A stretch of 40,906 nucleotides of DNA from a bacterium (GCA_016934595.1 JAFGSM010000104.1:1-40906); one strand, 5' to 3'. Shown: positions 4,508-37,761, numbered from the stretch's first letter. Made by a program: numbers and translations. The notes: generated by a model not told the origin, from the sequence alone.

Positions 4508-4579
4508 TGCTTCGTTTGAAAATCCCCTCTGGGGATTTTCATTCTTATTTGTGAATCAAAGATTCATGTGTGTTTCATT
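4508..4579. repeat. Family A mosaic palindromic repeat, copy A1
   Basis: Two perfect hairpins are joined by linkers seen in other copies. Hairpin 1 has 10-bp arms GAAAATCCCC 4518-4527 and GGGGATTTTC 4531-4540. Hairpin 2 is TGAATC, AAA, GATTCA at 4552-4566. The flanking words TTCGTTTGAAAAT, ATTCTTATTTGTG and ATGTGTGTTTCATT recur with small changes in copies A3 and A5. It lies between the GT9 and radical-SAM genes. Confidence 0.8.
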
Positions 4580-4584
4580 GATTA

Positions 4585-5760
4585 TTAATTCGATGATCCC
4601 TCTATAAGCTCCCTTGCAGCGGTGTAAACATCATCAGGTGTTATGGCCTTCATGCACCCATGATGGATCCTGTTTTTACAGACATCCTCGTCACAATCAA
4701 ACCGGCATGGGAAATCCTTTTCCACAACCCTGCAAAACCTTCCATATGGCCCTGTCTCCCTGGACTTGGACGGGCCGAATATAGCCACAACAGGCGTTCC
4801 TGTCGCGGATGCGATATGCATAGGGGCGCTGTCTCCGGTTATAAAAAGACGAAAACCCTTTATCAATGACGATAGCTCCTTCAAACCGGTCTTCCCGCAA
4901 AGGGAAATGGCCCTGTTCTTGTCTATCCGGGATAATATCGCCCCGGCAACCCCTTCATCCTCAGAAGATCCTGTTATAATGATCTTTGCAGAAAAATCCT
5001 TCATCAATCTCTCCAAAACATTTATATACCCTTCAGGATCCCATCGCTTTAGCAATTTTCTTCCTCCGGGGTGCACACCGATAACCATATCGGAGTCCTT
5101 TATCCCGTTGGACCCGAATATCCGGTTCCTGAAGACCTCTTCTGCCCTGGAAAGATGGATTTCCGGCATGGGTTCATTTATTTTTATATCCAGCGATCTT
5201 AATATGTCAAGATGATATGATATCTTGTGTTTTATCTTGTCAAAAGGTATTACATAGGTCAAAAGATACCCCCCTCCGCCTGATCCATAACTTATTCTAT
5301 AATATGCCCTGCTTGCAAACAAAACAAAAAGGATATTCCTTATGTCCCCCCTGAAATCGATAGCCATGTCGAACCCTTCCCCTTTGATCCTCTTGACCAT
5401 ATTTAGATATCCTCTTACAGTCTCCTTTATGCCGGCAGGGTAAAACCAAAAAGCGTCATAGGTTATTATATGATCTATATAAGGATTTCCTTCAATGATC
5501 TTTGCCTCCTTTTCCCCTGTCAAGAAATATATCTTCGCCCTGGGGAACTCATCTCTAATCGGCCTCAAAACAGGGAGGGTCATTATGACATCGCCTATAT
5601 ACGCCAGTCTTACTACCAGGATCTTCTTTATCCTGTCCTTATTGATCCGCCTTTTCCCTCTCAAAAAAAGGAAGGGCCTTATGAACAGAAATCCTATGGC
5701 ATCGATCAGGATCACACAGACCAGCTTTTTCTTATTTATTATTTTATAACGCTTCAACAT
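4585..5760 (-). CDS. Family 9 glycosyltransferase (LPS heptosyltransferase-like)
   Basis: A 391-residue GT-B enzyme. The family's opening motif KKILVVRLAYIGDVIMTLP lies near residue 45. The second Rossmann half carries VIGVHPGGRKLLKRW, and the sugar-nucleotide loop ITGDSAPMHIASATGTPVVA follows, then FGPSKSRETGPYG. A Cys-rich tail (CRFDCDEDVCKNR) is common in this family. The first ~40 residues include a hydrophobic stretch (VCVILIDAIGFLFIRPFLFL) that could anchor it to the inner membrane. Family members add heptose or related sugars to LPS core or to lipid-linked glycans. With no other core-oligosaccharide genes nearby, it more likely acts on the glycan of this cluster. The ribosome site at 5760 is weak (AGG touching the ATG), so the exact start is less certain. 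Confidence 0.9.
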   Translation of the reverse strand: MLKRYKIINKKKLVCVILIDAIGFLFIRPFLFLRGKRRINKDRIKKILVVRLAYIGDVIMTLPVLRPIRDEFPRAKIYFLTGEKEAKIIEGNPYIDHIITYDAFWFYPAGIKETVRGYLNMVKRIKGEGFDMAIDFRGDIRNILFVLFASRAYYRISYGSGGGGYLLTYVIPFDKIKHKISYHLDILRSLDIKINEPMPEIHLSRAEEVFRNRIFGSNGIKDSDMVIGVHPGGRKLLKRWDPEGYINVLERLMKDFSAKIIITGSSEDEGVAGAILSRIDKNRAISLCGKTGLKELSSLIKGFRLFITGDSAPMHIASATGTPVVAIFGPSKSRETGPYGRFCRVVEKDFPCRFDCDEDVCKNRIHHGCMKAITPDDVYTAARELIEGSSN

Positions 5761-5775
5761 CCTGTTTTTTTATAT

Positions 5776-5830
5776 TGAGAACACAGAGTTATTAATTTTC
5801 TCTGTGCGATCTGTGATCTCCGTGGTGAAC
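5776..5830 (-). repeat. Family R dispersed repeat, truncated copy R1
   Basis: On the minus strand this reads GTTCACCACGGAGATCACAG and so on to CTCTGTGTTCTCA. It nearly duplicates the first two-thirds of copy R2 (19250-19327) in the opposite orientation. It lacks the terminal part ending CTCTGTGGTTAATTGAAAA. Its end runs directly into family A copy A2, sharing the AAC at 5828-5830, so the two families form a composite here. Confidence 0.75.
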
Positions 5831-5889
5831 GCCCATGCCGCTTTTTAGCGGCGACAAGAATCATGAAAATAGAATCTATTTTCGTATCA
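5828..5889 (+). repeat. Family A mosaic palindromic repeat, copy A2
   Basis: It starts AACGCCCAT, then hairpin GCCGCT-TTTT-AGCGGC (5837-5852), the linker GACAAGAATCAT, then the palindrome GAAAATAGAATCTATTTTC (5865-5883) and CGTATCAAA. It matches copy A4 (16127-16185, opposite orientation) almost base for base, including both stems. Confidence 0.8.
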
Positions 5890-5904
5890 AACTATTACAA
5901 AAAA

Positions 5905-6840
5905 TTAAACAAGGAGTTTACCTCCCGAGAATTCATCCCAGAAATGCCATAACCAGGGATACTGTTTTATATACATTTCAAGCAAGGAGATAAATCCCAT
6001 AGTAAGCGCCGCCTCATCCTGAGATCCTTCCATATCAGGATCAAACAGGGGAGGTTCGATGATGGTCCTGAATGTCAGTCTCTCCTTATCCGGAACGGTA
6101 AACACCGGCAAAAGGCTCGATCCGGTTTTAATGGCAAGCAGGCCTGGCCCAATGGGAAAGAGCATGCTCTTCCCCAGAAATGGGAATGCCTTAAACCTGC
6201 CGAGAAATTCCCCCCCACCTGTTCCGTCTCCTGTTATCATAAGCGTACCTTTGGATTTGAGATGACGGAATACCTGCCGTAAAAAACGGCTGCCATCAAT
6301 GATCCTGGCAGGTATGATACTTTCGTATTCCTCCCGCAGCCTGAACGCCACCGTTTCGCCTATGCGGCTCAGGCCCTTTGGCTTTCTTAAGTAACCAAGC
6401 TGCCATATGTTATACCCCAGAAGCCCGAGATGAAAAAGGGGGAGATGGACAGGCCCGAAATGGGGATGGATAAGTATGCATCCATTGCCCTTAGCAAGCG
6501 CCTTTTCCAGATTTTCCAGACCTGAAAATCTGTGGACCCTCTTGATACTGTCCCTGTTTAATCCCGGGAATGAAAATATAAGAAGCTGGCTTATGTAATG
6601 GGTCTCAAAATATCCCCTTGCCAGACAGCCCATGCCTGTCGTATGGAATCTTGAGGATACCGGAAGGATATTTTTAAGGACCTGCCTCCTCTTTCCCCTG
6701 GACATCATATAATGTGTCCTGCCCATAATCGAAAACAGTCTTAAGGCACAGGAAAGAGGCAGTATGGAGACAAACCACCTGAACGGATACCAGACAACAA
6801 GTCTCGCTATGTCTCTTAAAGGGCTTTCAGAGGTTAACAC
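5905..6840 (-). CDS. Lysophospholipid/lipid A-type acyltransferase (LPLAT, LpxL-like)
   Basis: A 311-residue member of the LpxL/HtrB-like acyltransferase superfamily, which moves a fatty acyl chain to a glycolipid or lysolipid at the inner membrane. Seen: N-terminal hydrophobic segments (IARLVVWYPFRWFVSILPL), a catalytic-block region near residue 124 reading ILIHPHFGPVH, a later RFLRQVFRHLKSKGTLMITGDGTGGG block, and FPIGPGLLAIKTGSSLLPVF near residue 225, all in family order. Oddity: the canonical motif is HX4D/E, but the position after HFGPV is His. The start is GTG 6840, which lies 34 bp downstream of the radical-SAM gene's stop. No lpx genes are nearby, so the acceptor is unlikely to be plain lipid A precursor. 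It has a paralog at 13312-14394. Confidence 0.82.
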   Translation of the reverse strand: MLTSESPLRDIARLVVWYPFRWFVSILPLSCALRLFSIMGRTHYMMSRGKRRQVLKNILPVSSRFHTTGMGCLARGYFETHYISQLLIFSFPGLNRDSIKRVHRFSGLENLEKALAKGNGCILIHPHFGPVHLPLFHLGLLGYNIWQLGYLRKPKGLSRIGETVAFRLREEYESIIPARIIDGSRFLRQVFRHLKSKGTLMITGDGTGGGEFLGRFKAFPFLGKSMLFPIGPGLLAIKTGSSLLPVFTVPDKERLTFRTIIEPPLFDPDMEGSQDEAALTMGFISLLEMYIKQYPWLWHFWDEFSGGKLLV

Positions 6841-6874
6841 AAAATCTCTCTTGGATTGCTCGTATGCGCTTTAT

Positions 6875-8392
6875 TTAAAACCTTGACTTAAAGCCAAAAG
6901 ATGCGCTCTTTACGCATGACTTTAATCTTTTCAATGGAGCCAAACCGATTGCGCCCCAGATCAAGGGGGCTAAATTTTTTCTGAAAAATCTCATCCGGCA
7001 GAATATCTTCAAAAATGCCCTGGGCATGTAATTTTTCGAGGCAAAAAATATCAGGCAGGCATAGTATCCATCCCTGTCAAAGCGGAGGTTGTTTATAGCC
7101 GATTTCCATATAAACCTATGGTTGCGGCCTTTTCCGTCAACATCATCGACACTGATCAGTCCTCTTTCAATGGCTATATCCGTCACCCTGGTCTTCGGAT
7201 AAAACTTGAGATTATATAAATTGAGGATTTTGGGCCTTGGCAATATCATGATCAGATCAAAGGTCTCTTTTCTATTATCATCATCCTCAAAGGGGTTGTC
7301 CATGAGAAAATTATATCTTAATTGCACGCCCTGCGCCTTGAAATATCGTGTTACCTCTAAAAGCTGGCTGTTTGTTCCGCCTTGCATAAATATCCCTGAA
7401 CGTATTGCCTCGGATCCGCTCTCGATTCCTATAACCAGCCGCTTAAGCCCTGCCCTGACAAGCATGGACGCAACATCAAAGTCAAATGCGGATGAGGCGG
7501 GGCGCCATTCCGTTTCCATAGGCAGACCGATCTCTTTTTTATACCTGCGGGCGAATTCTTCCAGCCAGGGGTCCCTGCCGGCAAATGGAAATACCTCATC
7601 TATCTTGACCATTTTGAGGCCGCCTATACACCCGACTGCCATCTTTAATTCCTGAATGATATTCCCTGGGCTCCTCCTTCTAAAAAATCCCTTCCGGTCA
7701 GGGGAGGCATCCCTCAATGCCTGATTTGAACAATAACCGCATGAGAAGGCGCAACCTCTTGCTGCACGCGCTACATACATCCTGCTTTTTCTGGCAGGGT
7801 CTCCCTGAATCAGCTTGTTATTAAACAGGATATATTTGTCTTCATCCCCAAGGTCATTAAAGGGCAGGCTGTCCACATCTCTCAGAAGGGGTCTCTGGGG
7901 ATTTTTGCTTATACGGCCGCCTGACCTCACCCACAGGTTTGATATGGAGGTAAAATCTTCCGATCTGCGCAAAGATGCCGCCAGTTCTGTCAATGCCTCT
8001 TCCCCTTCCCCCAAACAGACGATATCCGCCGATTTGAGACATTCCTCAGGACACAGGGTCGGATAGGCGCCACCCCAAATCACAGGGGCTCCGGTTCTCT
8101 CCCTTATGATCCCTGTCAGGTAAACTGCCCATTGAGACAATGGGGCGACGACGCTAATGCCGGCAAGCCCAACATCAAGTTCCTTTAATAACCCGCAAAA
8201 ATGGGCCTCCTCTTTTTTGGTAAGCCTTTGCCTTCCGGACGGGGAAAGAAAGATGATAGAGGCCCTGATGCCTTTTGCCTTTAAATAGGCATGAAGGGAT
8301 CTTACGCCAAATCCAATAGGTCCGAACGAGATAAGGACTATGCCTCTATCCCGATTGGAGTCTATGTCTTTCATTGCATTAGTTGTTTTCAC
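6875..8392 (-). CDS. B12-binding-domain radical SAM protein
   Basis: A 505-residue protein. The N-terminal domain (to ~170) is cobalamin-binding-like: ISFGPIGFGVRSLHAYL, then GISVVAPLSQWAVYL, VIWGGAYPTLCPE and IVCLGEGEEALTEL. The radical-SAM core has CAFSCGYC in ARGCAFSCGYCSNQAL, then KIDEVFPF, KRLVIGIESGSEAI and YNFLMDNPFEDDD. The start is GTG 8392 with AGGA about eight bases upstream; that ribosome site falls inside repeat copy A3. A later ATG (8374) has no ribosome site. Transcription continues into the LPLAT gene after a 34-bp gap. The reaction is unknown; C-methylation or rearrangement of a cluster-specific sugar or lipid is possible. Confidence 0.87.
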   Translation of the reverse strand: MKTTNAMKDIDSNRDRGIVLISFGPIGFGVRSLHAYLKAKGIRASIIFLSPSGRQRLTKKEEAHFCGLLKELDVGLAGISVVAPLSQWAVYLTGIIRERTGAPVIWGGAYPTLCPEECLKSADIVCLGEGEEALTELAASLRRSEDFTSISNLWVRSGGRISKNPQRPLLRDVDSLPFNDLGDEDKYILFNNKLIQGDPARKSRMYVARAARGCAFSCGYCSNQALRDASPDRKGFFRRRSPGNIIQELKMAVGCIGGLKMVKIDEVFPFAGRDPWLEEFARRYKKEIGLPMETEWRPASSAFDFDVASMLVRAGLKRLVIGIESGSEAIRSGIFMQGGTNSQLLEVTRYFKAQGVQLRYNFLMDNPFEDDDNRKETFDLIMILPRPKILNLYNLKFYPKTRVTDIAIERGLISVDDVDGKGRNHRFIWKSAINNLRFDRDGYYACLIFFASKNYMPRAFLKIFCRMRFFRKNLAPLIWGAIGLAPLKRLKSCVKSASFGFKSRF

Positions 8393-8395
8393 TTG

Positions 8396-8492
8396 AAAAT
8401 CCTGGATTCCGGCCTTCGCCGGGATGACAAAAAATGTTATTTTTCATCCCCCTTTGTGAATCAAAGATTCATGGGCGTTTCATTTGAAAATC
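8396..8492. repeat. Family A mosaic palindromic repeat, copy A3, with REP-like arm
   Basis: It begins GAAAATCCTGGATTCCGG and carries three hairpins: CCGGC-CTTC-GCCGG (8409-8422), an A/T hairpin with AAAAAT and ATTTTT arms (about 8431-8445), and TGAATC-AAA-GATTCA (8457-8471). It then reads ATGGGCGTTTCATTTGAAAATC. The last hairpin and linker match copy A1. The first part looks like the common bacterial REP-type word TTCCGGCCTTCGCCGG. It supplies the ribosome-binding region of the radical-SAM gene that starts at 8392. Confidence 0.75.
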
Positions 8493-8522
8493 TTTTTTAT
8501 TCTCTGTCTTCACGCTAAATTA

Positions 8523-10241
8523 TTACAGGTATCCCAGATTCTTTAACCTCTCCTTTATTTGTTTCTGATCATCCTGGGAATAATCGCACCCTCCTTCTGT
8601 TTTTATTCTTCCGTAATCATCAGGGCAACTCTCATATTCGACAGGATTCCCCCTGATAAAGGCTTCATCTATCGCCTCAGTCAGCACACGGCCATCGATA
8701 TCGGCGCTTACCGGCAACCCCGCAAGGAAAAGGCATGTAGGTGCAACATCTGTTACGTCCGCATCTTTAAGTGTTACCCCTTTGCGAATGTTCTTTCCGC
8801 TCAAAATGATTATCCCATCCGGGCGGTGTGTGCCTGTAATCTGCAAAAACTCCTTCCCATCCTTTACCCTGCCCATAAAATCCCCATCCTTGAACAACAT
8901 GGATGAACCCCTGTTTTCAGGAAAGGAGAAAGCGCCGCTATATGAAAAAACGATATCAGGGGACTCGGACAAAAACGGCCCTGAGTAGACATCCTGTTTT
9001 TTGCATACACACTGAAAGACTGGAAGCCCTGTGTCAGGGTCATTTATCCCTTTAAGAAGGGCTACAATGTCATCGCATACCTTTTCATATTCCTCCCCTG
9101 CCTCCACAATCCCTGTTCCAAAACGGTACTTTCTGTTTATCCATACAAGTCCCATAGGCTCATCTGCAAACGCCTTTGTCTTTTCCCAATCGATATTCGA
9201 AAAATGGAGGCATGAGAATGCCTTCCCCCTCAAAAACGGAAAAAGGGCCTTCAACCTTTGCTGATGCTTAGGGGACAACCGCCTCCTTGAAAGATCAGAT
9301 GCAATACGCCTTATCGAACCGAGCCTCGAGGCCATCCCTTTTCCGCCTTGATGGGTTTTATATTTCAGCAGTCCATGAATATTGAGCAATCTGTTGACAG
9401 ATATGACATTAGGGCTTCGGGGGCCGAAACCGTGATCCGAGACAACAGCGAGACTGGCGTCCGCTGAAAGCCCTGCGGCTATTTCGCCTGCCAGTGAATC
9501 TATCAGCCTGTATGTATCCAAAACGGCATTTCGTATCCTATGATGGGTGTTTTTTGGGAAAAAAGGATAGCCGCTGTCCATATCCCCCCAGAATTTGTGC
9601 TGAATGCGGTCAGCAGCGACAAAGACGACCATGAAAAAATCCCATGGATATTTCTTTAGAAGATATGAAGCCACCCGGCACCTGAGCCTTGCAATCTCGT
9701 GGACTTCGGCGATATATTCCATCTTCCCTTTTTCGCTCAGCTCCGTCCATGTGGTGGCAGTCTCCGGTTCGATCCTGTATCTCCCAAACCTTTCATTCAG
9801 CTCCTTTTTCAGTGATTCAGGATATGTAAACCCCTTGTCTGCATTAGGGGTGTCCATCCCTGATATCATAATGCCGTCCACCTCTTCAGGGGGGTAGGTT
9901 AGGGGGACGTTTATCACGCAAACCTTTCGCCCATGCCTTCCAAAGACATCCCATATTGAGGAAGAAGCCTTTGTGAGGCTGTTTGTGATCCTTATCCTTG
10001 CTATATCTGTGCCGGGGGAAGTAAAACCGAAGACCCTGTGTTTTCCGGGATTCTTCCCTGTCACTATGGATGTCCAGGCTGGGGCGCTGTTGTCAGGGAT
10101 AGATGATTTTAAAATGCCATGAGAGCCATTGAATATAATGCCCTGAATATTCGGAAGATATCCCCGTGCTGCCCAGGGTTTTATGAGATCGAAGGTAGCG
10201 CCGTCTATGCCGATGATACAGATCCTGTTCTTTTCCTTCAT
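8523..10241 (-). CDS. AP-superfamily phosphohydrolase/phosphomutase-like protein (COG3379 type), paralog 1
   Basis: A 572-residue member of the alkaline phosphatase superfamily, related to type I phosphodiesterases and cofactor-independent phosphoglycerate mutases. All expected active-site positions are present: Asp13 in GIDGATFD, the nucleophile region NSAPAWTSIVTG (Ser52 aligns with the NPP nucleophile Thr), a D-x-x-x-H pair in AADRIQHKFW, the DH pair in VVSDHGFGP, and the late His in GTHRPDGIIILSG. There is no signal peptide, so it should act in the cytosol. It ends with IKERLKNLGYL, a tail shared by all four paralogs here. Its ATG overlaps the previous gene's TAA by one base (TAATG), implying translational coupling. 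The substrate is unknown; a sugar-phosphate, nucleotide-sugar or polyprenyl-phosphate ester would fit the context (inference). Confidence 0.88.
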   Translation of the reverse strand: MKEKNRICIIGIDGATFDLIKPWAARGYLPNIQGIIFNGSHGILKSSIPDNSAPAWTSIVTGKNPGKHRVFGFTSPGTDIARIRITNSLTKASSSIWDVFGRHGRKVCVINVPLTYPPEEVDGIMISGMDTPNADKGFTYPESLKKELNERFGRYRIEPETATTWTELSEKGKMEYIAEVHEIARLRCRVASYLLKKYPWDFFMVVFVAADRIQHKFWGDMDSGYPFFPKNTHHRIRNAVLDTYRLIDSLAGEIAAGLSADASLAVVSDHGFGPRSPNVISVNRLLNIHGLLKYKTHQGGKGMASRLGSIRRIASDLSRRRLSPKHQQRLKALFPFLRGKAFSCLHFSNIDWEKTKAFADEPMGLVWINRKYRFGTGIVEAGEEYEKVCDDIVALLKGINDPDTGLPVFQCVCKKQDVYSGPFLSESPDIVFSYSGAFSFPENRGSSMLFKDGDFMGRVKDGKEFLQITGTHRPDGIIILSGKNIRKGVTLKDADVTDVAPTCLFLAGLPVSADIDGRVLTEAIDEAFIRGNPVEYESCPDDYGRIKTEGGCDYSQDDQKQIKERLKNLGYL

Positions 10242-16106: not shown

Positions 16107-16126
16107 TCGCTTAAAACCTTTTTGGT

Positions 16127-16245
16127 ACGAAAATAGATTCTATTTTCATAATTCGTGGTGCCGCTAAAAAGCGGCATGGGCGTTTACCATAAAAAGACTT
16201 TTTCGTCCCCGTGGGTGAACTACTTGTTCACGAGCATTTAGGAGA
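16127..16245. repeat. Family A mosaic palindromic repeat, tandem double copy A4
   Basis: Unit 1: palindrome GAAAATAGATTCTATTTTC (16129-16147), linker ATAATTCGTGGT, hairpin GCCGCT-AAAA-AGCGGC (16160-16175), then ATGGGCGTTTACC. Unit 2 follows directly with different stems: AAAAAG-A-CTTTTT (16191-16203), linker CGTCCCCGTGG, hairpin GTGAAC-TACTT-GTTCAC (16215-16231), then GAGCATTTAGG. The architecture of hairpin, CGTGG-like linker, hairpin and GGGCGTTT-like linker is repeated while the stem sequences have changed. Confidence 0.8.
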
Positions 16246-16272
16246 AGATTTGCCATCTCGGCCCCAGGCCGT

Positions 16273-19228: not shown

Positions 19229-19249
19229 TTCTTCCCCATTTTGTTTTAA

Positions 19250-19327
19250 TTCACCACGGAGATCACAGAGCGCCCAGAGAAAATTAATAACTCTGTGTTC
19301 TCAGTGTCCTCTGTGGTTAATTGAAAA
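19250..19327 (+). repeat. Family R dispersed repeat, full copy R2
   Basis: About 78 bp, from TTCACCACGGAGATCACAGA to CTCTGTGGTTAATTGAAAA. It is an imperfect palindrome, since ACCACGGAG at one end pairs with CTCTGTGGT at the other. The core reads GAGAAAATTAATAACTCTG. The inverse of copy R4 (39868-39948) matches it over its whole length with scattered differences. It fills most of the 133-bp gap between an AP gene and the polymerase gene. Confidence 0.85.
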
Positions 19328-19361
19328 CGTAATTATCCTTTTCAATCCATAAACCCGATTG

Positions 19362-21059: not shown

Positions 21060-21131
21060 TGATTCCTCCCATTTTCATTCCGGGTAACCGTTCACCCCGT
21101 GAGCCGAATAAATTATGTCAACACAGGATTT

Positions 21132-21201
21132 TACCACGGAAGTACACGTAATATCACGGAAAATAATTGTCCAGTGCAATTCAGTGAAAATCCGTGGTTA
21201 A
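21132..21201. repeat. Family R-like degenerate repeat R3
   Basis: It begins TTACCACGGAAGTACACG and ends ATCCGTGGTTAAC, so ACCACGGA and TCCGTGGT form the outer inverted arms. Inside are further CACGGA and CAGTG words. The ends resemble family R but the core differs from R1, R2 and R4, so it is either a diverged copy or a sister family. It lies in the gap between the BY-kinase and AP genes. Confidence 0.6.
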
Positions 21202-21216
21202 CTGTTACCATTCCGG

Positions 21217-23286
21217 CTATTTGTAATGGTAATTGTAATAATATGTGATTTTTCCAATTGCCAGTTTATTAAGAAGCATTCCCAGAGGCCTTATATTGGC
21301 CTGCTTTAAAAATTCAAGCGCCTGTGAAAAGGCACGGTGGGTCACCTTCCTGCTTTCAAGCACCAGAACCAGGGCATCTGTATAACCCGCCAGTATTCTG
21401 GCATCATTTGCCGCCAGGATCGGGGGGGTATCCAGTATAACGAAGTCAAACCTGTCTTTTAGCCCCTTCACCAATTCTTTCATCTTATCAGACTCTGTCA
21501 GAAGCCCCGGGTCAGGGGGGATAGGCCCGCTGCAAAGCAGATTAAGCCCCTCCACCTCTGTTTTTTTGACGGCCTCATCTATATCCGCATCTCCGGCCAA
21601 TACATTCACTATCCCAGTGGTATTCGGTTTTTTGAATATCCTGTGCATATCGGGTTTTCGCAAGTCCGTATCGACGATGAGAACCTTTTTACCCTCACGG
21701 CAGATAAAAATACCCAGATCTATGACGGTAGTCGTCTTTCCCTCCCCTTGAAAAGAACTGCTTATAACCAGGGTTTTTACCGGTTTATCAAGGCTGGCGA
21801 ATCTTATGCTGTTAAGCACTGTCCTGTAAGCCTCACAGAATGGATCCTTGGGGTCCCTTTTTAGGATTATCGGGCTCTCTCTCCTTTTGGATCTTGGGAT
21901 GACCCCCAGGAAGGTCACATTGTGCTGTTTTGCCTCTTCCTGGGACTTTATTGTGTCATCAAGATAATCAATCAAAAAGGCCATGCCGAACCCGAATATA
22001 ACGCCCAGAAAGGCGCCCACTATCCCATTAAGAACCATATTGGGGCTTTCAGGTTTGTTGATATTGGGCTCTGCTGCGGGTTCCACCAGCCTTATGTCGG
22101 AAAGTGTCATGGCCTCAGCCACTCCCACCTTGTAAAGATATTCAAGGAGCGAGCTATAGAGTTTCTGGCTTGCTGACAGTTTCAATTCCAACTGTGACTG
22201 GGTTAATGTCTTGTCCGGAAAGGTGTACAGGTCGGATAAATATTTATCTATATCCGTCTGGACGCACTTCAGATGCGCCTCCATCCCGGAAATCTCCCTC
22301 TCAAAGGTCTCCAGATCCTGAGAGGATTTCTGGAAAACGCCCACCTCATATGCCAGCTCTTCTTTGGCCTTCTTGATCTTTTCCTGAATAATCCTGGCAT
22401 CCGGATGATCAGGTGTATTTTCTGTCAATATCTCGGCCAGATTCAGCTCCAGATCGGTGATCATTTTTTTTAGGTGATCTATCTGCGGGTTCTCTGAGAT
22501 CGCGGAGCTGGATACAGTTATGCCGGTTTGCCTGCCGAGCTGATCCTTTAATGTGTCCAGCTTGGCCCTGGTCTTGTTGATCTCGATAATACCCTTTTCC
22601 TTTTCATTCAAAAGATCGGTCACTTTCCGGATGGCTTCATTTATCTCGGTATTCAGATCGACCGTTCCCTCCTTGATCTTGAACCTTTTTATCTCCTCAA
22701 GCGCATCAAGATAGGCAGCCTTTGAGACCTCGATCTGCCCCTCTATAAAACTTTTGGCATTGGCAAACTCTATCCTTCTTTGACGCAGGTTTTCTTCAAT
22801 ATAGACATCCACCAGGGTGTTGGCGATCATAGCCGCTGTTTTCGGGTCTGCAGCGCTTGCTTCTATCTTGAATATATCCGTATCATTTACCTGTGTTACC
22901 TCCAGATACGGCTTTGTAAATATCCTGGAAGATATAATCCCTGATGTCTTTAATTCACTATGCCTCAACAAATCGCCATTTCCGGACTTCAATTGCAGCC
23001 TCGATATCACCTTATCAAGAATAGGAGACGAGGTGGCCAGTTCAATCCGGTTCTCTATCTCTGTGCCCGATTTGGTTAGCCTTGACTGAGCAAGATTCGT
23101 CAGATCAAGGCTTGATAAGATAGACGACGCTGTCGTTGATGTCTCCATAATCACCTTTGCAGAGCTGCTATATCTTGAGGGAAGAAAAAAACTGCAAAGG
23201 ATCGCGCTAAGCAGTATTATCAAAAATGCCTGGATTATGATCCATCTTCTGCGAAGGATAATCTCTAATATCTTTCTAAGGTCCAT
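21217..23286 (-). CDS. Wzz-type chain-length regulator fused to BY-kinase (Wzc-like)
   Basis: A 689-residue inner-membrane protein that controls polymer length and export through tyrosine autophosphorylation. Membrane segment 1 lies near residues 15-35 and segment 2 near 400-425, with a long coiled-coil-rich periplasmic domain between them. The cytosolic kinase half has Walker A in SSSFQGEGKTTTVIDLG, Walker A' in VLIVDTDLRKPDMHRIF and Walker B in FVILDTPPILAAND. The C-terminus is a short Tyr cluster, ITYYYNYHYK, the autophosphorylation tail. Both halves are in one chain, as in Proteobacterial Wzc rather than the split Firmicutes form. Its presence with the Wza-like and initiating transferase genes defines this as a Wzy-dependent exopolysaccharide locus. 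The ribosome site is weak. Confidence 0.93.
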   Translation of the reverse strand: MDLRKILEIILRRRWIIIQAFLIILLSAILCSFFLPSRYSSSAKVIMETSTTASSILSSLDLTNLAQSRLTKSGTEIENRIELATSSPILDKVISRLQLKSGNGDLLRHSELKTSGIISSRIFTKPYLEVTQVNDTDIFKIEASAADPKTAAMIANTLVDVYIEENLRQRRIEFANAKSFIEGQIEVSKAAYLDALEEIKRFKIKEGTVDLNTEINEAIRKVTDLLNEKEKGIIEINKTRAKLDTLKDQLGRQTGITVSSSAISENPQIDHLKKMITDLELNLAEILTENTPDHPDARIIQEKIKKAKEELAYEVGVFQKSSQDLETFEREISGMEAHLKCVQTDIDKYLSDLYTFPDKTLTQSQLELKLSASQKLYSSLLEYLYKVGVAEAMTLSDIRLVEPAAEPNINKPESPNMVLNGIVGAFLGVIFGFGMAFLIDYLDDTIKSQEEAKQHNVTFLGVIPRSKRRESPIILKRDPKDPFCEAYRTVLNSIRFASLDKPVKTLVISSSFQGEGKTTTVIDLGIFICREGKKVLIVDTDLRKPDMHRIFKKPNTTGIVNVLAGDADIDEAVKKTEVEGLNLLCSGPIPPDPGLLTESDKMKELVKGLKDRFDFVILDTPPILAANDARILAGYTDALVLVLESRKVTHRAFSQALEFLKQANIRPLGMLLNKLAIGKITYYYNYHYK

Positions 23287-23367
23287 AGTTTAATAAATCC
23301 ATATAAAATCCGAGCGGTTCCTGGTATGACCACTTTATTTAAAATCTTTTCCTTCTCCTCCTTATGA

Positions 23368-26601: not shown

Positions 26602-26641
26602 ATAATCTGCCTCATAATAAAATTAATGCTTAGCTGTTCCT

Positions 26642-30705: not shown

Positions 30706-30883
30706 CCCCCCTATAAATCTTAAAAAAATATTATGGTGTCATTCTTTAAAATTATAGATATTAATATTATAAAGATATGTATAAACCAATCCTATTATTG
30801 AATTAGAAATCTAACATATTATCATTAGTTTTGCAAACAACTTAATACACATTAATATACAAGCAAGGAGAAAATACTGCGGT
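30706..30883. promoter_or_regulatory. AT-rich divergent intergenic region, likely holds promoters for both directions
   Basis: A 178-bp, strongly AT-rich spacer lies between the minus-strand polysaccharide block and the plus-strand phosphoribosyltransferase. On the minus strand, TATAAT-like boxes lie at 30756-30751 and 30771-30766. On the plus strand, TTGCAA (30831-30836) is followed after 16 bp by TAATAT (30853-30858), though that would leave almost no leader before the ribosome site. No box pair is good enough to name with confidence and no operator palindrome was seen. Confidence 0.4.
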
Positions 30884-31435
30884 ATGGAACCAAAAATATT
30901 TATAGATGCCAATACACTGCTGACCGATTCTTTCATGCTGGCCAGAAAGGTCTATGAAAGCGGCTATCGTCCGGATTTCCTTTTAGGTGTCTGGAGGGGC
31001 GGCACCCCGCCAGGCATAGCGATCCACGAATTCCTTGTATTCAAAAAGGCAAGCCCTAAATACCATACTGCAATTAAGGCAGAATCCTATAGCGGGATTG
31101 GGCAACGCTGCGATAATGTTATAATCGAAAACCTGGATAAGGTTGCTTCCATGCTGAATGAGGGAGACAGGATACTGATAGTGGACGACATCTTCGACAC
31201 GGGAAAAAGCATGGAGGCCATCAAACATTGTCTTTACAAGGCCGTCAAATTCCATACCCAGATAAAGGTAGCCACTGTCTATTATAAACCTGACAATAAC
31301 CTTACGGATTTCATGCCTGATTATTACTTAAAAACCGTCAAGGGATGGGTGGTCTTCCCCCACGAACTGAACGGGCTGTCTATGGAAGAATTAAGGAAAA
31401 AGGGACAAGGTATCTGCGGAATCCTTATGGTTTAA
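30884..31435 (+). CDS. Hypoxanthine/xanthine-type phosphoribosyltransferase
   Basis: A 183-residue type I phosphoribosyltransferase that joins a purine base to PRPP for salvage. The PRPP motif is RILIVDDIFDTGKSMEA near residue 105, and the N-terminal loop is GVWRGGTPPGIAIHEF near residue 42, as in the COG2236 group. No signal peptide is present. AAGGAG (30865-30870) precedes the ATG by 13 bases, slightly long. It is divergent from the polysaccharide block and convergent with the peptidase gene, overlapping its stop by 4 bp (31432-31435). Its placement looks like ordinary housekeeping, with no clear link to either neighbour. The base specificity is uncertain. Confidence 0.86.
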   Translation: MEPKIFIDANTLLTDSFMLARKVYESGYRPDFLLGVWRGGTPPGIAIHEFLVFKKASPKYHTAIKAESYSGIGQRCDNVIIENLDKVASMLNEGDRILIVDDIFDTGKSMEAIKHCLYKAVKFHTQIKVATVYYKPDNNLTDFMPDYYLKTVKGWVVFPHELNGLSMEELRKKGQGICGILMV

Positions 31436-34400
31436 TGTTCACAAGCACTGATAAAGCATGTGACCCCCTGGGTGAAACCTGCCTCGCCTGCCTCCGAATC
31501 CCATCCTGTGCCCGTGGTCCCCGTTTCTGTCCCACCTGTTTGAGAGCCTGAACCTGGGATTGGGATTGAACCTGAACCAGTAATAATCGCCTCCTCCGAA
31601 GGCGAACTCTCCACGCCATAGATGTTGTAAGCAGTGACCTGGACCTTATAGGTTATTGCCGGGTCCAGCCCTGTCAAATAATAAGAATTGGTGTTTCCCA
31701 CGTCCAGTTTTGAGCTTGTTACAATACTCCCTGTATTAGAGGACGTTCCGGAACTTGTTGAGCTTCCTGTATTACTGGATGTCTGTGACGATGTATTTTG
31801 ACTCGAGGATGAGCCTCCGCCGCTTCCGCTCATGCCTCCGCCTTCCTCCTTTTCTTCAGAACTGGAACTCCCGCCATCCTGCATGTAGAAGGCAGACCGT
31901 TCATCCTGATCCTCGCTTAAAGACCATGTGGTCTTGCTGGAGGTGTTAGGACCATAATACAGATAATAGCCTTTGGCGTCAGGGCTTCCGCTCCATACAA
32001 GGCTGGCAATCTGATTTTGTATGTTTACAACCAGGGAACTGGGCGGGGCAGGGGCCTGGCTTATCCCCCTTTGCCCAAAAATTTCTTTTATCAATTCGCC
32101 ATGTATGCTGCCATATCTCACCTGGTCAATAATCAGACAATCTATAAGAAAATCAAGATATGTTGCAGGCTGTGCCAGAGCCGCAAAATAAAACAGTGTG
32201 TCCGCAACTCTGATCCCTTCATCCCCGACTTCCTGTCTCAATGCCTGCCTCAAATCCCACATTGCGCCGGACAGGATCTGACTGCTCTGATAAAGCTCCT
32301 GTCCGTAGTTGGTAAGGTAATTCAGGCCGTTCTCCAGTGTCCTGACGTAATCATGACCAATCCAGAAGCCGCCCTCGGCAATCTGGGGATCGTTGTTTAT
32401 CGTGCATGCCCAGTAATCTGAGAATGCCTCATGCATGGCGTCAAACTCTGTAAACCTGCTCAAGGCGGCATAGCCGCCTGCATCCCCTATCCCTTTGCCC
32501 AGACCTTCCAATTGGCCATAGATGCTGTCAGTGACCGCATGGGCGCATTCATGATATATGATATCCGAAAAGTGGGCGAAATTGGAGTACTCATACTTAT
32601 CCCCTTCGCCAAAAAATATCCCCTCGCCAGGCATCCAGAACGAATTCATATACTCCTTTTGATAACGAACCGTAATCCTAATGGGGAATGCATCAGAGGT
32701 CTCAGCCCAAAACTCAGGATCGATCTCCTGAATATGCCTCACAAGAAGATTGGCATGGTAATATACGTTAATTTCGTCGATATTGGAAAGGGAATTGACA
32801 GTACCCGTTTTGGTGCTGACATCATAATCCGTGATCCTCTTAAAATTTATCGCCTCGCCGGTCGCACCTGACGCCACATTGCTCTTTGTATAAACGGCAT
32901 CCGCGCCGTCTTCATTGATCACCTTAAAATAAGAACCTTCAAGACATGAGCACAATATGTTCTTTTGCGCCTCCCCTGTAATCTGATAACAGCCTTCATG
33001 ATCCGTAATCCCAAAGACGCTCGAATATACGCCTATATCATCTATATTCCATCCGCAGTAACTGACATAACCGTTTGTAGGACCTATGCCCCATCTGAAA
33101 AATATGTTTTCGCGGCCTTCCGCCCATTTTGATATATCATAAAGGACAAGCCTCCATCCTCCATCATATATGTCTTCTTCAGGGTTTTCCCATATCTTCC
33201 ACCATGTGGAGGTCGGTCCATCCGATATCTCAATTGATGCGTGATCCGATTTTGAATTTTCTATCCCAAGCCATCTCCAGAATCTGAGATAGACATTCTT
33301 ACCCGAAGTGCAGTTCACCGGATTTGAGGTTGTAAGATATTGTGGCGACCACATATTAAGCGGGTAATAGCCGTTCAGGTTATAAGCATAAAAGGTCAGG
33401 CCTGTATGCCCTTTGTCCGGACCTGGACCTCCTGCGCTGCTCACAGGATATACAGGCTGCCCGAACTCCCATCCATAGGGGGTTGTCCCCAGCCACCCCG
33501 GGTCTGTATCAAGCGAATTGTACATCAGCGGAGAGTCATCACGCAGACAGATCACTTTAAGTTTGGGCAAAGCTGCGTCGACCGGGTTGTCATTTGAATA
33601 CCTGGGAAGCACCTGTCCCTTGGCCTGTCCGGATATGAGATGACGGCCAAGAACCTTTCTGTCCAAAATGGTGCTTGTATCCGCTTCGATAATATACAGC
33701 CACTTTTGTAATGGATCACGGCACCTTAATTCAATCAACCACGCCCATACAAACCGGGCGCTGCCCTTATCCTCAAAGGGATATACGAATAAAAGCCCTG
33801 CTGAGGCATCAAAATGTGCACCTGGATAAATGGCCGCAAGATCAGATATTGCAGCGGCAATAGCCTCCTCTGACTCCGATGCCTTCCGTTCTTGGATTTC
33901 TGGCAGGACAACACCCGGGAAATGGTTCATGGTTATGGACATAACATCGCCGTTTTCAGAGACGATAAACGATATCTTGCTCCCGTATACAGGAATGCCT
34001 TTATATATCTGTCCAAAATCCATGAACCATATCCCCCCCCTATGGGTATATCTTAAAGGTTTGATCTCATCCGTTGAGATGCCGAACAATTCCTTGTTCT
34101 GATTAATAAAACCCTTGCATGCATCAACTATGGCCGCCCCGGATTCCACAGCAAGCCTCCTCGGGATATCCATTTTTATATCCCCTCCGAATATACGGTA
34201 AATACCATCTGAATCAGCCCTGCCGATGATCTTTACATCTTTTCCATAGCGCTCGAAAAATGCCTTGGCGCCATCGGATCTTTCCATAAGCTTATCTGCC
34301 CTGAGGGAGACAAATCTATCAGGCGCTTGATTATCATCACCCGTAATCCTTCCCCTTTGCCTTGTATCCTCTCTAATGAGCCCATGTACCACCACGCTTG

Positions 34401-34479
34401 GCGCGAATATGATACAGACTGATATCAGCAGCAAGACAAGCCACCTTATATCCTGCCACCTCTTATGATACAGGTCCAT
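31432..34479 (-). CDS. Secreted M4/thermolysin-like metallopeptidase with FTP, jelly-roll and FN3 domains
   Basis: A 1015-residue exported gluzincin protease. Signal peptide residues 1-33; FTP-type propeptide region roughly 100-275 with FGQIYKGIPVYGSKISF; a carbohydrate-binding-like jelly-roll about 390-490 (YLRFWRWLGIEN, WNIDDIGVYS); a catalytic zinc domain with HECAH at 643-647 and the third ligand Glu684 in DAMHEAFSDYW; an FN3 domain from about 810; and a Ser/Gly/Thr-rich linker inserted in or near it. The Cys in HECAH is unusual for the xx of HExxH. The C-terminus ends FTQGVTCFISACEH, with two Cys. It resembles the next peptidase in all domains except the linker, so the two arose by duplication. 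It probably degrades extracellular protein or matures surface proteins. Confidence 0.9.
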   Translation of the reverse strand: MDLYHKRWQDIRWLVLLLISVCIIFAPSVVVHGLIREDTRQRGRITGDDNQAPDRFVSLRADKLMERSDGAKAFFERYGKDVKIIGRADSDGIYRIFGGDIKMDIPRRLAVESGAAIVDACKGFINQNKELFGISTDEIKPLRYTHRGGIWFMDFGQIYKGIPVYGSKISFIVSENGDVMSITMNHFPGVVLPEIQERKASESEEAIAAAISDLAAIYPGAHFDASAGLLFVYPFEDKGSARFVWAWLIELRCRDPLQKWLYIIEADTSTILDRKVLGRHLISGQAKGQVLPRYSNDNPVDAALPKLKVICLRDDSPLMYNSLDTDPGWLGTTPYGWEFGQPVYPVSSAGGPGPDKGHTGLTFYAYNLNGYYPLNMWSPQYLTTSNPVNCTSGKNVYLRFWRWLGIENSKSDHASIEISDGPTSTWWKIWENPEEDIYDGGWRLVLYDISKWAEGRENIFFRWGIGPTNGYVSYCGWNIDDIGVYSSVFGITDHEGCYQITGEAQKNILCSCLEGSYFKVINEDGADAVYTKSNVASGATGEAINFKRITDYDVSTKTGTVNSLSNIDEINVYYHANLLVRHIQEIDPEFWAETSDAFPIRITVRYQKEYMNSFWMPGEGIFFGEGDKYEYSNFAHFSDIIYHECAHAVTDSIYGQLEGLGKGIGDAGGYAALSRFTEFDAMHEAFSDYWACTINNDPQIAEGGFWIGHDYVRTLENGLNYLTNYGQELYQSSQILSGAMWDLRQALRQEVGDEGIRVADTLFYFAALAQPATYLDFLIDCLIIDQVRYGSIHGELIKEIFGQRGISQAPAPPSSLVVNIQNQIASLVWSGSPDAKGYYLYYGPNTSSKTTWSLSEDQDERSAFYMQDGGSSSSEEKEEGGGMSGSGGGSSSSQNTSSQTSSNTGSSTSSGTSSNTGSIVTSSKLDVGNTNSYYLTGLDPAITYKVQVTAYNIYGVESSPSEEAIITGSGSIPIPGSGSQTGGTETGTTGTGWDSEAGEAGFTQGVTCFISACEH

Positions 34480-34800
34480 TTGATATCACCCCTGCTGAAA
34501 ATATGCCTTTATAGAAGGCTTCATGAATTGCTTTAATTTCTGTTTAATCTGTAAGTGTTTAAAAACCCTTCTTTTAATCTATGAGTATTCAAGAATCGAC
34601 TATGCATATTGAATACCATACGGCATGATGGAATGCTAATATAAAGACTTTGTTTTTATTGACATTATCTATACAGGAAGGAAGCTTTACGTTATAAGGA
34701 AGGGTTTTATGTTTAAAAAATGCCCTGGCATGTTTAATAATAAAACAGGATGGCCGTGCATACATGCTGATTTAAAAGACGAAATAAATCCTAAAAAACC
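34480..34800. other. Intergenic region between the two peptidase genes
   Basis: AT-rich, 321 bp. On the minus strand it should contain the promoter and ribosome site (GGGGTGAT before ATG 34479) of the downstream peptidase gene. No clear -35/-10 pair was identified. On the plus strand a TTGACA word occurs at 34659-34664 without a matching -10, and a short open frame starts at 34709 (listed separately). No repeat or structured RNA was recognised. Confidence 0.5.
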
Positions 34801-34876
34801 CTACCGGCAAAGCGCTCCAAGAAAGCAAAAGACCTTGTACTCGCTCCCTGATGAATCCTTGCTGGATTCCCTGTAG
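34709..34876 (+). CDS. Possible small ORF, 55 residues, unknown
   Basis: A short open frame beginning MFKKCPGMFNNK and ending DESLLDSL. A strong Shine-Dalgarno-like AAGGAAGGG (34696-34704) lies four bases before the ATG, which is why it is listed. It has two Cys, no signal peptide and no known motif. Its 3' third overlaps the end of the downstream-strand peptidase gene in antisense, which argues against a conserved protein. It may be a chance frame. Confidence 0.2.
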   Translation: MFKKCPGMFNNKTGWPCIHADLKDEINPKKPYRQSAPRKQKTLYSLPDESLLDSL

Positions 34877-37641
34877 GGAGTAGCATAGACATAATCGGAT
34901 GCGCTGCTTTCCGCATAATATTCATTGTATGCAGAGACCTTCAAAACATAGGTCGTCCCGTTTGTCAGGCCAGTCAATTTATATGCAGTGGCCAAACTGG
35001 CGTCCCGCCTTACGCTCGGGTCCTCCTTGTCGGTCACGATGTCATTTTCCGTGCGGAAATACACGTAATATCCCTTTACCTCGTCTATATCGGAATTTTG
35101 CCGCCAGCTCAGTTCCACAAATGTATCGCCTGCCACAGCCGTAAGTCCCCCAGGCGATTGCGGAGGCCTGCTTATCCCTCTCAGGCCGAAGATATCCTTT
35201 ATAAACACCACATGCTCCCCGTCATACGTGATTTCGTCCTGCATCAAGACATCCACCAAAAAGTCATCGAATGTGGTTGCCCCGCCATAGCGGGCAAAGT
35301 GAAAAAGCGTGTCTGCGACCTCTTTACCCACCAATTCCCTTGTCTCCCACATCGCTCCGGAAAGTATGAGGCTGTTGGCGTATACGTCGTCTCCATAATC
35401 ATCCGGATATTTGAATTCATTGTCCAGATTTCGCACATAATTGCGGCCTATCCAAAAATCGCCATCCCCGACCCTGGCGTCTCCATTCATGGTGCAGGCC
35501 CAGTAGTCGGAAAAGGATTCATGCATCGCATCAAATTCCGTGATAAAAACCGGCCCTGTTTGCTCACCGTCCGTTGTCCTTCGAATAGATGTCAAAGGCG
35601 GCATAAAGAAGGAATAAAAGCTGTTAGTAATGGCATGGGTATATTCATGATAGATGATATCGGAAAACTGCGCAAAATTTCTGTATCCGCCTGTACGCGA
35701 ATCGCCTTCTCCGAAGCAGATCTTGTGCTCAGGAGACCAGAAGGCGTTCTTGTAATTATCGCCAAACCGGACGACCACACTTATAGGGTCCTTTTTGTCC
35801 ATGGCGTTGTAGAAAGGATCTATCTGTTTGACATAACTTAGCAGCAGATTAATATGATAAAAAACGTTGAATTCATCAAAACTGTTAAGCGTGGTTTTAT
35901 CTGTATCCCAGTTAATTGCAACAGGGGGTTGGGTGTCTCCATCTATTCCCTCCATATAACATATGGCCGAAGCCCCGTCCTCATTGATCACATCTACATA
36001 AGTCCCCTCAAGCCTGCACAAAAGCATGTTGGCGGGTACGCCTCCGGTCTCTGCCAGGTCAAAAAATCCATTCGGATCCGTCAGGGTGTTTGTGCTTTCA
36101 TATATCCCTATGTCATCCAGATTCCATCCGCAGAATGTCCCAGATCCATCCGTTGGCCCCATTCCCCACCGTATGGCTATGTCTTTTCCATCCGCCCATT
36201 TTGATATATCAAAGAACTGGAGGTTCCAGCCTCCCCATGTATTATTAAAGGAGTCATAAATGCCATCCTCGATCTGGCTTGTGCCGTTTGACCAGATAAC
36301 GGTCCAGGTCTGTCCGCCATCGTTTGATACCTCTACCGTAGCCCTGTCATAATCCGTCCTTTGTCCGGAATCCGTCTCCCAATATTCCGCCTGTACACCC
36401 AGCCATCGCCAGAACGTCAGGACAACGCCTGTTTTGTTGGCGCAGTATATCGTATTGGTGGTCAGGTATTTTGTCTTCATGAGGTTCGTGTAATCACCAA
36501 GTAGATTATATCCAAAGACGTTCAAACCTGTTACACCACTGATAGGATCAGGGCATCCTGCATGACCGTATATATTGATATCCTGAGGCACGGGCACCCC
36601 TAATCCCCATGCGCCCTCTCGTGCCCAGCCAGGATCTATATCCAGGCTATATTCACATACAGGGATAGTCTGATTAAGGGCGTAGATTTTTTGATTCCTG
36701 AAAGGCTGCCACTGCGGTGGATCATTAAAGTATTCCGGAAGGATCAATCCGCCGACCCTCCCCTTGATGCCCATCCTGTTTAAACTGTAGTCAAGGATGA
36801 ATCTCCCTGTTTGGGAGTCGATAAAGATAAGGCTGCTTCCTTTTGAAGCAGAACCCGTAAATACAGGGACCTGCCACGCAAGGCGGTATTCCATTCCTTC
36901 CCTGAAAGGCACGGGCAAAACAAACAGGCTTGTTTCACCAAGCCTCCCTCCATCCTCAGCAATGCGCATATGCCGCCTTGCGATATTTGCCGCATCGTTG
37001 CCTTTGACAGATGGAACGGGATCTATTCCGATGCCGGGATATGTATCGCCTGCCATCAAAAGGAGGTTTCCTTTTAAGTCAAACCTGAACTGAACACCGC
37101 CTCCATAGACCCTCACCCCTTTATAAAACTGCGCAAATTGGCAATAAAAAATCCCCCCCCGCAGTTTTATATCCTCTAAGACAAGGTCATCCTGCCCGAC
37201 CTTTAAAAATTCTGAATACTCTTCGATCAGCCCCTTGGATCTGGCTATAATCCCTGACTCGTTTATGTTGTCTCCTGTTTTGAGCCTCGCCGTTTGAGAA
37301 ATATTCCTGTTATATAGACGGTGTACCGTCCCCCATGAGTTCCAGTGGCCTGCCCAGTCCCCTTCATTGTTATACCTGAATCTTTCCAGTCCGGTCTGCC
37401 CTGAGCCATCATATCGAGGGTTTTCTGATTCAGGCTGCGGGGAAGGCCCTTGATTTGCGTTTTCAACCTTAATCGGATTCGCTGCGAGCGGCCTTTCAAC
37501 ATTGTTTTGAAGGCCGGAAGATGGTGGACCCAAAAAAGACCAGGCCATGGGCGGCAGAACAAGGATCAAACCTACGCCTAAGGTGCATGCCAGAAAATAC
37601 ATGAACCGCCTTTTGTCTTGAAAATAGATTCTATTTTTCAT
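34801..37641 (-). CDS. Secreted M4/thermolysin-like metallopeptidase, paralog
   Basis: A 946-residue exported protease from ATG 37641. The basic n-region KNRIYFQDKRR and core FLACTLGVGLILVLPPMAWS form a signal peptide whose layout matches the paralog's MDLYHKRWQDIRW start. The FTP-like propeptide includes FAQFYKGVRVYGGGVQF, followed by a jelly-roll region (FWRWLGVQAEYW, GWNLDDIGIYE), the zinc motif HEYTH at 665-669, Glu708 in DAMHESFSDYW, and one FN3 domain. The last residues are EYKVFCFLGALCR. The frame stays open to ATG 37761, but residues added by that extension come from in-frame family A repeats. ATG 37602 has the best ribosome site (AAAAGG) but would leave a signal peptide without positive charge. 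ATG 37641 itself lies in a repeat linker, so the repeat has shaped the gene's 5' end. Confidence 0.88.
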   Translation of the reverse strand: MKNRIYFQDKRRFMYFLACTLGVGLILVLPPMAWSFLGPPSSGLQNNVERPLAANPIKVENANQGPSPQPESENPRYDGSGQTGLERFRYNNEGDWAGHWNSWGTVHRLYNRNISQTARLKTGDNINESGIIARSKGLIEEYSEFLKVGQDDLVLEDIKLRGGIFYCQFAQFYKGVRVYGGGVQFRFDLKGNLLLMAGDTYPGIGIDPVPSVKGNDAANIARRHMRIAEDGGRLGETSLFVLPVPFREGMEYRLAWQVPVFTGSASKGSSLIFIDSQTGRFILDYSLNRMGIKGRVGGLILPEYFNDPPQWQPFRNQKIYALNQTIPVCEYSLDIDPGWAREGAWGLGVPVPQDINIYGHAGCPDPISGVTGLNVFGYNLLGDYTNLMKTKYLTTNTIYCANKTGVVLTFWRWLGVQAEYWETDSGQRTDYDRATVEVSNDGGQTWTVIWSNGTSQIEDGIYDSFNNTWGGWNLQFFDISKWADGKDIAIRWGMGPTDGSGTFCGWNLDDIGIYESTNTLTDPNGFFDLAETGGVPANMLLCRLEGTYVDVINEDGASAICYMEGIDGDTQPPVAINWDTDKTTLNSFDEFNVFYHINLLLSYVKQIDPFYNAMDKKDPISVVVRFGDNYKNAFWSPEHKICFGEGDSRTGGYRNFAQFSDIIYHEYTHAITNSFYSFFMPPLTSIRRTTDGEQTGPVFITEFDAMHESFSDYWACTMNGDARVGDGDFWIGRNYVRNLDNEFKYPDDYGDDVYANSLILSGAMWETRELVGKEVADTLFHFARYGGATTFDDFLVDVLMQDEITYDGEHVVFIKDIFGLRGISRPPQSPGGLTAVAGDTFVELSWRQNSDIDEVKGYYVYFRTENDIVTDKEDPSVRRDASLATAYKLTGLTNGTTYVLKVSAYNEYYAESSASDYVYATPYRESSKDSSGSEYKVFCFLGALCR

Positions 37642-37761
37642 TCTTCGTGGCGGCCTGAAAGGCCATGGGTGTTTGTCTCGAAAATAAACCTCGTTGTTTA
37701 TTTTCATGCTTCGTGGCGCCGCAAAGCGGCATGAGCGTTTGTTCCGAAAATAGATATTCAT
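37617..37761 (-). repeat. Family A mosaic palindromic repeat, in-frame tandem copy A5
   Basis: Two full units and part of a third run through the open 5' end of the peptidase frame. Stems: AAAATAGA/TCTATTTT (37621-37637), GGCCT-GAA-AGGCC (37652-37664), GAAAATAAAC/GTTTATTTTC (37680-37705), GCCGC-AAA-GCGGC (37718-37730), then a partial GAAAATAGAT. Linkers CTTCGTGG and ATGGGTGTTT or ATGAGCGTTT recur. On the minus strand the units are 66 and 60 bases long, multiples of three, and read as repeated KR/KH...PR(R/S)MK...YFRD peptide units. Confidence 0.85.

Follow-up and report, generated by a model that had tools for sequence, protein, structure and literature searches.

What kind of element keeps its linkers while the stems between them change? 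The question is raised by five short loci between positions 4,508 and 37,761 of a 40,906-nucleotide stretch of bacterial DNA (GCA_016934595.1, JAFGSM010000104.1:1-40906; hereafter the window). Each holds units made of two successive hairpins, which an initial annotation had read as copies of a single plan. The five loci are true members of one repeat family, and hairpin 1 of the unit covaries, its sequence changing across and within genomes while its pairing stays. We think it somewhat probable that the units form a superfamily of very small non-autonomous mobile repeats, similar to repetitive extragenic palindromic (REP) sequences or miniature inverted-repeat transposable elements (MITEs), which are moved in trans and include a coding subtype resembling Rickettsia palindromic elements (RPEs).

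Architecture, insertion and spread of the unit

Read 5' to 3' on its own strand, the unit has the form AAACNCYCAT-[hairpin 1]-RCCACGAANCAT-[GAAAA..slot..TTTTC]-NNNN(T/C), followed by the AAA of the next unit. It is 59-69 bp long and contains two direct hairpins, each preceded by CAT. Hairpin 1 has a stem of about 5-6 bp that varies except for a fixed G-C base pair; the tag before it is YCAT, and almost all aligned units have the G of CATG paired. The tail after hairpin 1, RCCACGAA, includes CCA. The 3' end is TTTTC plus four or five bases of loose conservation, the last being T or C, and the termini, AAAC and NNN(T/C), are not inverted repeats. Subtypes are told apart mainly by the linker after hairpin 1, which is CCACGAA in A and B, CCCCCG in C and D, and CACAAAG in E (66 bp, window 4510-4575). 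Different subtypes stand side by side in head-to-tail arrays, where the closing AAA of one unit is the start of the next. Direct reading of all five loci agrees with the shared plan and with its minus-strand orientation at four of them, the unit at 5827-5891 alone lying on the plus strand. All five listed loci are real, but the list had overlooked a D-type unit at 1993-2055 (plus strand) and an unfilled site at 21132/21133.

Excising a unit from AAAC to the T or C before the next AA(A) restores contiguous related sequence. In a three-copy genomic repeat, the copy at window 21061-21240 (minus strand) is empty, with a vacant junction at 21132/21133, while L025 (contig C86) and L028 (contig C267) are filled at the identical base (GTGGT/AAAATC, between the equivalents of 21133 and 21132) by units that differ from each other, including in their hairpin 1 stems. 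Junctions elsewhere agree (L073 versus L098 and L093 versus L133, in other genomes). These empty paralogous sites bear out the earlier view of a dispersed, mobile family. The net gain per insertion is three As; either the AAA belongs to the unit and no target is duplicated, or two to three As are duplicated, and the runs of A are compatible with both.

The linkers are kept well past the five loci. In the parent genome (3.16 Mb, 272 contigs), a 171-base query from the window matches 46 places, the exact linker pattern 66 and the reversed pattern none, and a covariance model of the left half finds 128. The E unit as query finds 42 places, its own copy counted, so that at least 41 places of this second subtype come on top of the 128. 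Adjacent units less than 200 bases apart have the same orientation in 28 of 28 pairs (0 opposite), at spacings of 53-68 with peaks at 59-60 and 66. That the units are chance palindromes or an annotation artefact found no support and is refuted by the number of matches in a single genome of this size, together with a broad sample of 384 genomes in which 7 have exact pattern matches and none matches the reversed pattern.

Across GTDB genomes the linker pattern occurs in at least 104 contig stretches, and among the matches listed the same linkers are found in Desulfobacteraceae, Deltaproteobacteria, Syntrophaceae, Scalindua, Brocadia, Latescibacterota, Schekmanbacteria, and Nitrospinae. In the parent's phylum 4 of 10 genomes are positive, and one positive genome of the parent's class has both of the unit sequences found in a Schekmanbacteria record. 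At least four phyla are firm: Desulfobacterota in the broad sense, Planctomycetota, Latescibacterota, and the Schekmanbacteria group. Matches in Bacillota, Acidobacteriota, Chloroflexi, Nitrospirota, and Paludibacter come from single or short contigs and could result from faulty binning. The contigs of L084 (Deltaproteobacteria) and L130 (Thermodesulfovibrionia) have the same gene neighborhood, so that a binning error is likely there and affects phylum counts. Three linker-like copies in Terrihalobacillus insolitus (L099, L106, L108), with the hairpin GGCTTATCAGCC and at contig ends, lie in a longer conserved repeat and may be an insertion-sequence end.

The linker pattern has no match in viral contigs, nor a two-unit query in phages and plasmids, and an origin from any of these was rejected. 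No Rfam family matches the units, so a known RNA was likewise rejected, and searches of the open-access literature for the linker letters, double-hairpin elements, and Schekmanbacteria repeats returned nothing relevant. The family is real, widespread and, judging by Rfam and the open-access literature, apparently undescribed.

Covariation in hairpin 1 and the slot of hairpin 2

Folded as single-stranded DNA, every unit forms both hairpins. The minus-strand units at 16121-16185, 37672-37740, and 4510-4575 fold with z values of -5.1, -2.5, and -6.0, and are equaled by 0, 3, and 0 of 200 shuffles, respectively. The arms of hairpin 1 had been said to change together, and they do so more than chance allows: at pairs 2-5, 293 of 368 cells are Watson-Crick, compared with 254 ± 5.7 after shuffling (maximum 275 in 5000). 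This test drew on 92 distinct stems from 30 genomes and exchanged arms within each genome, which removes genome-level composition. Among 29 diverse units, 95.2% of hairpin 1 cells pair and 27 double changes are present versus 4.9 in shuffles. The signal in these units is lost when the partner is slid by one base, a control that complements the within-genome shuffles. Because the 29 units were hand-chosen, the unselected 92-stem set is the fairer test.

Compensatory change in hairpin 1 speaks for a structured RNA or mRNA element (terminator, processing or regulatory hairpins) whose covariation comes from selection on RNA, as does the finding that placed copies in the parent genome lie mostly between co-directional genes, 20 of 26 of them in sense. 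In other genomes, however, orientation relative to co-directional genes is random (20 versus 23) and 2 of 72 units lie inside open reading frames (ORFs), a pattern more suited to a DNA element than to an mRNA signal; placement is mainly extragenic. Nor are G.U-type intermediates in excess on the unit strand, since hairpin 1 mismatches comprise 14 G.T versus 26 A.C, and an RNA fold on that strand is therefore not favored. Together with the missing Rfam match, the lack of a recurrent downstream gene and the empty paralogous sites, these results make an RNA element very improbable. As a separate observation, decay of hairpin 1 C-G pairs is lopsided over all genomes (C.A 24 and C.T 18 versus T.G 8), the G of the 3' arm changing more; damage biased to one strand may account for this, or wobble on the opposite strand.

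Imperfect palindromes are well known to mutate by template switching, and many copies have decayed stems, pointing to weak selection on single copies. Both points lend some credit to arm-copying alone, in which template switching during replication perfects the palindromes, the units are passive, and their structure is neither selected nor recognized. Such copying leaves unexplained the near-identical linkers over several phyla, the dispersal and the precise insertion, and the single compensated pair differences within one genome (GCCGC/GCGGC and GCCAC/GTGGC) are also produced by mutation plus selection. We consider it improbable that arm-copying by itself accounts for the family.

Hairpin 2 is a slot of changing contents, not a stem that covaries beyond chance. 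Its arms, too, had been described as changing together, and within the window they do match; over all genomes, however, the sides inside GAAAA/TTTTC pair no better than shuffled ones (205 versus 202 ± 5.7). The slot is 5 to 211 nt long and often houses another palindromic repeat, such as the CGTC-type REP GTCATTCCCGCGAAAGCGGGAATCCAG. In Latescibacterota (L071, L104, L120), the palindrome AACCTCCCGCAGGTTTGGAACCTGCGGGAGGTT recurs in the slot. In Desulfobacteraceae CSMAG (L072, L093, L165), the slot of some units has an inverted-repeat insert of ~180 nt bounded by TTAATT, and sister units have a bare TTAATT there, as though a MITE had inserted and duplicated TTAATT as its target.

Known repeats and the search for a mobilizing enzyme

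The changing stems had seemed anomalous on the premise that normal REP families keep theirs, a premise that published families contradict. Prokaryotic REPs have been divided into GTAG and CGTC superfamilies, the latter including Neisseria dRS3 (Di Nocera et al., 2013; PMC3733652). Sub-families whose stems carry alternative but still complementary residues occur in most GTAG families, CGTC REPs are described as equally heterogeneous (PMC3733652), and the spacer hairpin of REPINs commonly shows compensatory changes (Bertels and Rainey, 2011; PMC3116915). Covarying stems are thus not novel in kind. What sets the units apart from known REPs is the YCAT tag, longer fixed linkers common to several phyla, strictly direct arrays, and a slot that hosts CGTC REPs.

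The nearest comparisons are instructive on both sides. CGTC REPs occur in five phyla without a dedicated transposase (PMC3733652), and the units resemble them as short palindromes with a 4-nt unpaired tag, a tail containing CCA (RCCACGAA), heterogeneous stems, a range of several phyla, and no dedicated transposase found, although failure to find an enzyme does not define membership. Unlike CGTC REPs, the units have a YCAT tag instead of CGTC, TGTC or CCTC, a hairpin 1 stem of about 5-6 bp with a fixed G-C base, and the conserved RCCACGAANCAT tail, and they form direct head-to-tail arrays, which are negligible among CGTC REPs; the latter are separate guests in the slots of units. With GTAG REPs, BIMEs and REPINs the units share high copy number, extragenic placement, compensatory hairpin changes (as in the REPIN spacer), and precise dispersal. 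Unlike these, they lack a GTAG (GYRG) tag and an adjacent RAYT, their linkers are longer than the REP tag, and their uniformly oriented neighbors differ from the inverted (HH/TT) dimers of REPINs. Membership of the GTAG REPs or REPINs was rejected on the YCAT tag, the single degenerate unit near 30 Y1_Tnp loci, and the absence of inverted dimers. The Nostoc repeats SDR4-6, mobile sequences of 21-27 nt said to have been described by Elhai et al. in 2008 from one cyanobacterial subgroup, reportedly have a common fold, compensatory changes, and nested insertions, as do the units here, but no fixed linkers common to phyla.

We hypothesize that an enzyme encoded elsewhere moves the units in trans, recognizing the linkers but, in hairpin 1, the shape alone. 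Its substrate would likely be the hairpins on single-stranded DNA, as in REP and IS200/IS605-type systems. Tandem arrays could arise when a unit inserts at the AAA that ends an existing one or through replication slippage, and new stems from template switching and/or compensatory mutation; such stems may persist since the enzyme would read shape alone. The E subtype would have made its way into genes because its 66 bp is divisible by three and leaves one frame open. Linkers shared by at least four phyla, the covariation of hairpin 1, the empty and filled sites aligned to the base, the direct arrays, and the single phase of E units in genes all count for mobile repeats; insertion is precise, before AA(A), with no target duplication beyond AA/AAA at most. 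That they constitute a distinct cross-phylum superfamily of mobile palindromes, with its own trans-acting recombinase or transposase that reads fixed single-stranded linkers and hairpin shape rather than stem sequence, and with a lineage that lives in genes as a translated 22-codon insert, is a tentative proposal with somewhat less than even odds.

The enzyme might instead be one that is already familiar. The units could be a YCAT-tagged, GTAG-REP-like superfamily of REPs mobilized in trans by host Y1/HUH tyrosine transposases (RAYT or IS200/IS605 TnpA), consistent with the short unpaired tag before the hairpins, the lack of a long target duplication, the high copy number, the extragenic placement, and the presence of Y1_Tnp in 12 of 12 element genomes searched. 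However, RAYT genes typically have GTAG REPs on their flanks (PMC3733652), whereas 1 of 30 Y1_Tnp loci in the element-bearing genomes has a unit within ~1.5 kb, and that unit is degenerate. Element-free genomes of the parent's phylum have Y1_Tnp equally often (9 of its 10 genomes, with or without units), so that there is no correlation. The only Y1_Tnp gene of the parent genome (G000 C27:1-830, L046) encodes 276 aa, is partial, being cut by a contig end, and has no adjoining unit. The TnpA-REP-like partner that had been suggested thus failed to appear, and we regard mobilization by Y1/HUH enzymes as unlikely.

Several observations weigh against the favored interpretation as trans-mobilized repeats. 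First, searches of Y1_Tnp, Y2_Tnp, recurrent neighbors, and genes between close pairs did not find a mobilizing enzyme. In addition to the scarcity of units at Y1_Tnp loci and the missing correlation with Y1_Tnp, 6 of 13 element genomes, among them the parent, have no Y2_Tnp, and no gene family recurs within 3 kb of units. Second, the linker at the right end shows little conservation, as is seldom the case for the end of a transposon. Third, empty sites are an evolutionary record and not observed movement. Finally, the mismatches in hairpin 1 indicate no single strand. Close unit pairs in the parent genome flank ordinary or housekeeping genes. In a check for long copies with an ORF, the nearest right end lay mostly within ~235 nt, and L135, at 3612 nt, was not taken as an element. 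No ORF-bearing copy was seen, and inspection by eye found no IS608-style complementarity between tag and flank.

Three further candidates were rejected: an IS200/IS605-derived MITE (PATE), as no unit was found at the ends of the Y1_Tnp loci examined and no ORF-bearing copy was seen; an IS91/Helitron-like one-ended element, on the same absences of Y2_Tnp; and a classical MITE with terminal inverted repeats, given the termini and a duplication of AA/AAA at most. CGTC REPs and RPEs pose the same open question of how REP-like repeats spread without a linked transposase. With recognition sequences common to several phyla, filled and empty sites, and a genome carrying well over 100 copies, the recognized bases and the enzyme are directly searchable here.

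The E subtype in genes and the units of the window

The E subtype alone is a palindromic repeat inserted in frame in unrelated genes. Many E copies translate as (E)TPMNLRFTKxNENTQRGFSDE within real genes and add ~22 amino acids per protein. Their hosts include PriA (two tandem copies), BirA, a GT4 glycosyltransferase, a UvrD-type helicase (two copies), a BadF-type ATPase, a soluble lytic transglycosylase, a GNAT protein, a DciA-like protein, and a response regulator (start region). Among 47 distinct E units, 14 are clearly flanked on either side by a long frame on the sense strand, and these 14 all share one phase; the four antisense ones probably reflect ORFs that arose by chance. A translated search gave 116 matches, of which 40 fall in stop-free open frames of at least 200 residues, all of them in the parent genome and none in nine relatives. 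Compared with solved structures, the insert is unmatched in PriA (63 residues versus 16), in the GT4 protein (27 residues versus none between two domains), and in an oxidoreductase gamma subunit (39 residues versus 19). The slot-borne CGTC REP is also in frame in several genes (FCHSGEGRNPGF).

RPEs (Ogata et al., 2000, 2002), as outlined in PMC10969869, are Rickettsia palindromic elements of ~150 bp that lie in frame within unrelated genes. By that description the E subtype is like them in being palindromic and translated in frame inside unrelated metabolic genes, and unlike them in its 66 bp, its candidate-phylum host, and its mostly intergenic sister subtypes. PARCEL repeats (PMC2996958) are likewise palindromic DNA encoding a repeated peptide, with a punctate, wide distribution, but they are 25-residue tandem domains in function-unassigned ORFs, many membrane-targeted, whereas the E inserts are single or few and lie in housekeeping enzymes. 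The E subtype therefore offers another natural setting, outside Rickettsiales, for the tolerance of a recurring 22-residue insert by housekeeping enzymes.

Within the window, the E copy at 4510-4575 (minus strand; hairpin 1 GAATCTTTGATTC, linker ACAAATAAGAAT, hairpin 2 GAAAATCCCCAGAGGGGATTTTC) lies between genes and carries an in-frame stop. A second E-type unit at 8390-8480 (minus strand), identified by direct reading and the E-unit query, has another repeat inside its hairpin 2 slot. This guest at 8403-8429 (minus strand) has a TGTC tag, a ATCCCGGC-GAAG-GCCGGAAT stem-loop, and a CCA tail, and is called a CGTC-type REP by the family definition of PMC3733652.

A further array lies on the minus strand near the window's end. 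A complete A/B-type unit at 37672-37740 reads AAACGCTCAT, hairpin 1 GCCGCTTTGCGGC, GCCACGAAGCAT, hairpin 2 GAAAATAAACAACGAGGTTTATTTTC, GAGAC, and AAA, and scores 64.4 bits with the covariance model. A second tandem unit at 37612-37674 (hairpin 1 GGCCTTTCAGGCC, hairpin 2 GAAAAATAGAATCTATTTTC) has its AAA in common with this neighbor, and the 3' remnant of a third (ATGAATATCTATTTTCGGAAC, by direct reading) heads the array at 37741-37763. Also on the minus strand, an A-type unit at 16121-16185 (hairpin 1 GCCGCTTTTTAGCGGC, hairpin 2 GAAAATAGAATCTATTTTC) has a C-type unit immediately upstream at 16183-16239 (hairpin 1 GAACAAGTAGTTC, linker ACCCACGGGG, hairpin 2 AAAAAGTCTTTTT), and this two-unit composite of 16121-16239 recurs elsewhere in the parent genome at 86-92% identity. 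The plus-strand unit at 5827-5891 is of A type by direct reading and the window query. The D-type unit at 1993-2055, also on the plus strand, is identical at 56 of its 63 bp to a composite D-type sequence and lies antisense in the coding region of a glycosyltransferase family 2 gene, whose frame it leaves unbroken.

Two adjoining genes at 31432-37761 both have thermolysin-like M4 peptidase domains; the ORF of the second runs through the unit array, and its apparent start may be too far upstream. Between 8523 and 21059, four long genes with a common start motif resemble type I phosphodiesterases (the one tested matches PF01663) and alternate with radical-SAM-like, acyltransferase-like, and exopolysaccharide-like genes.

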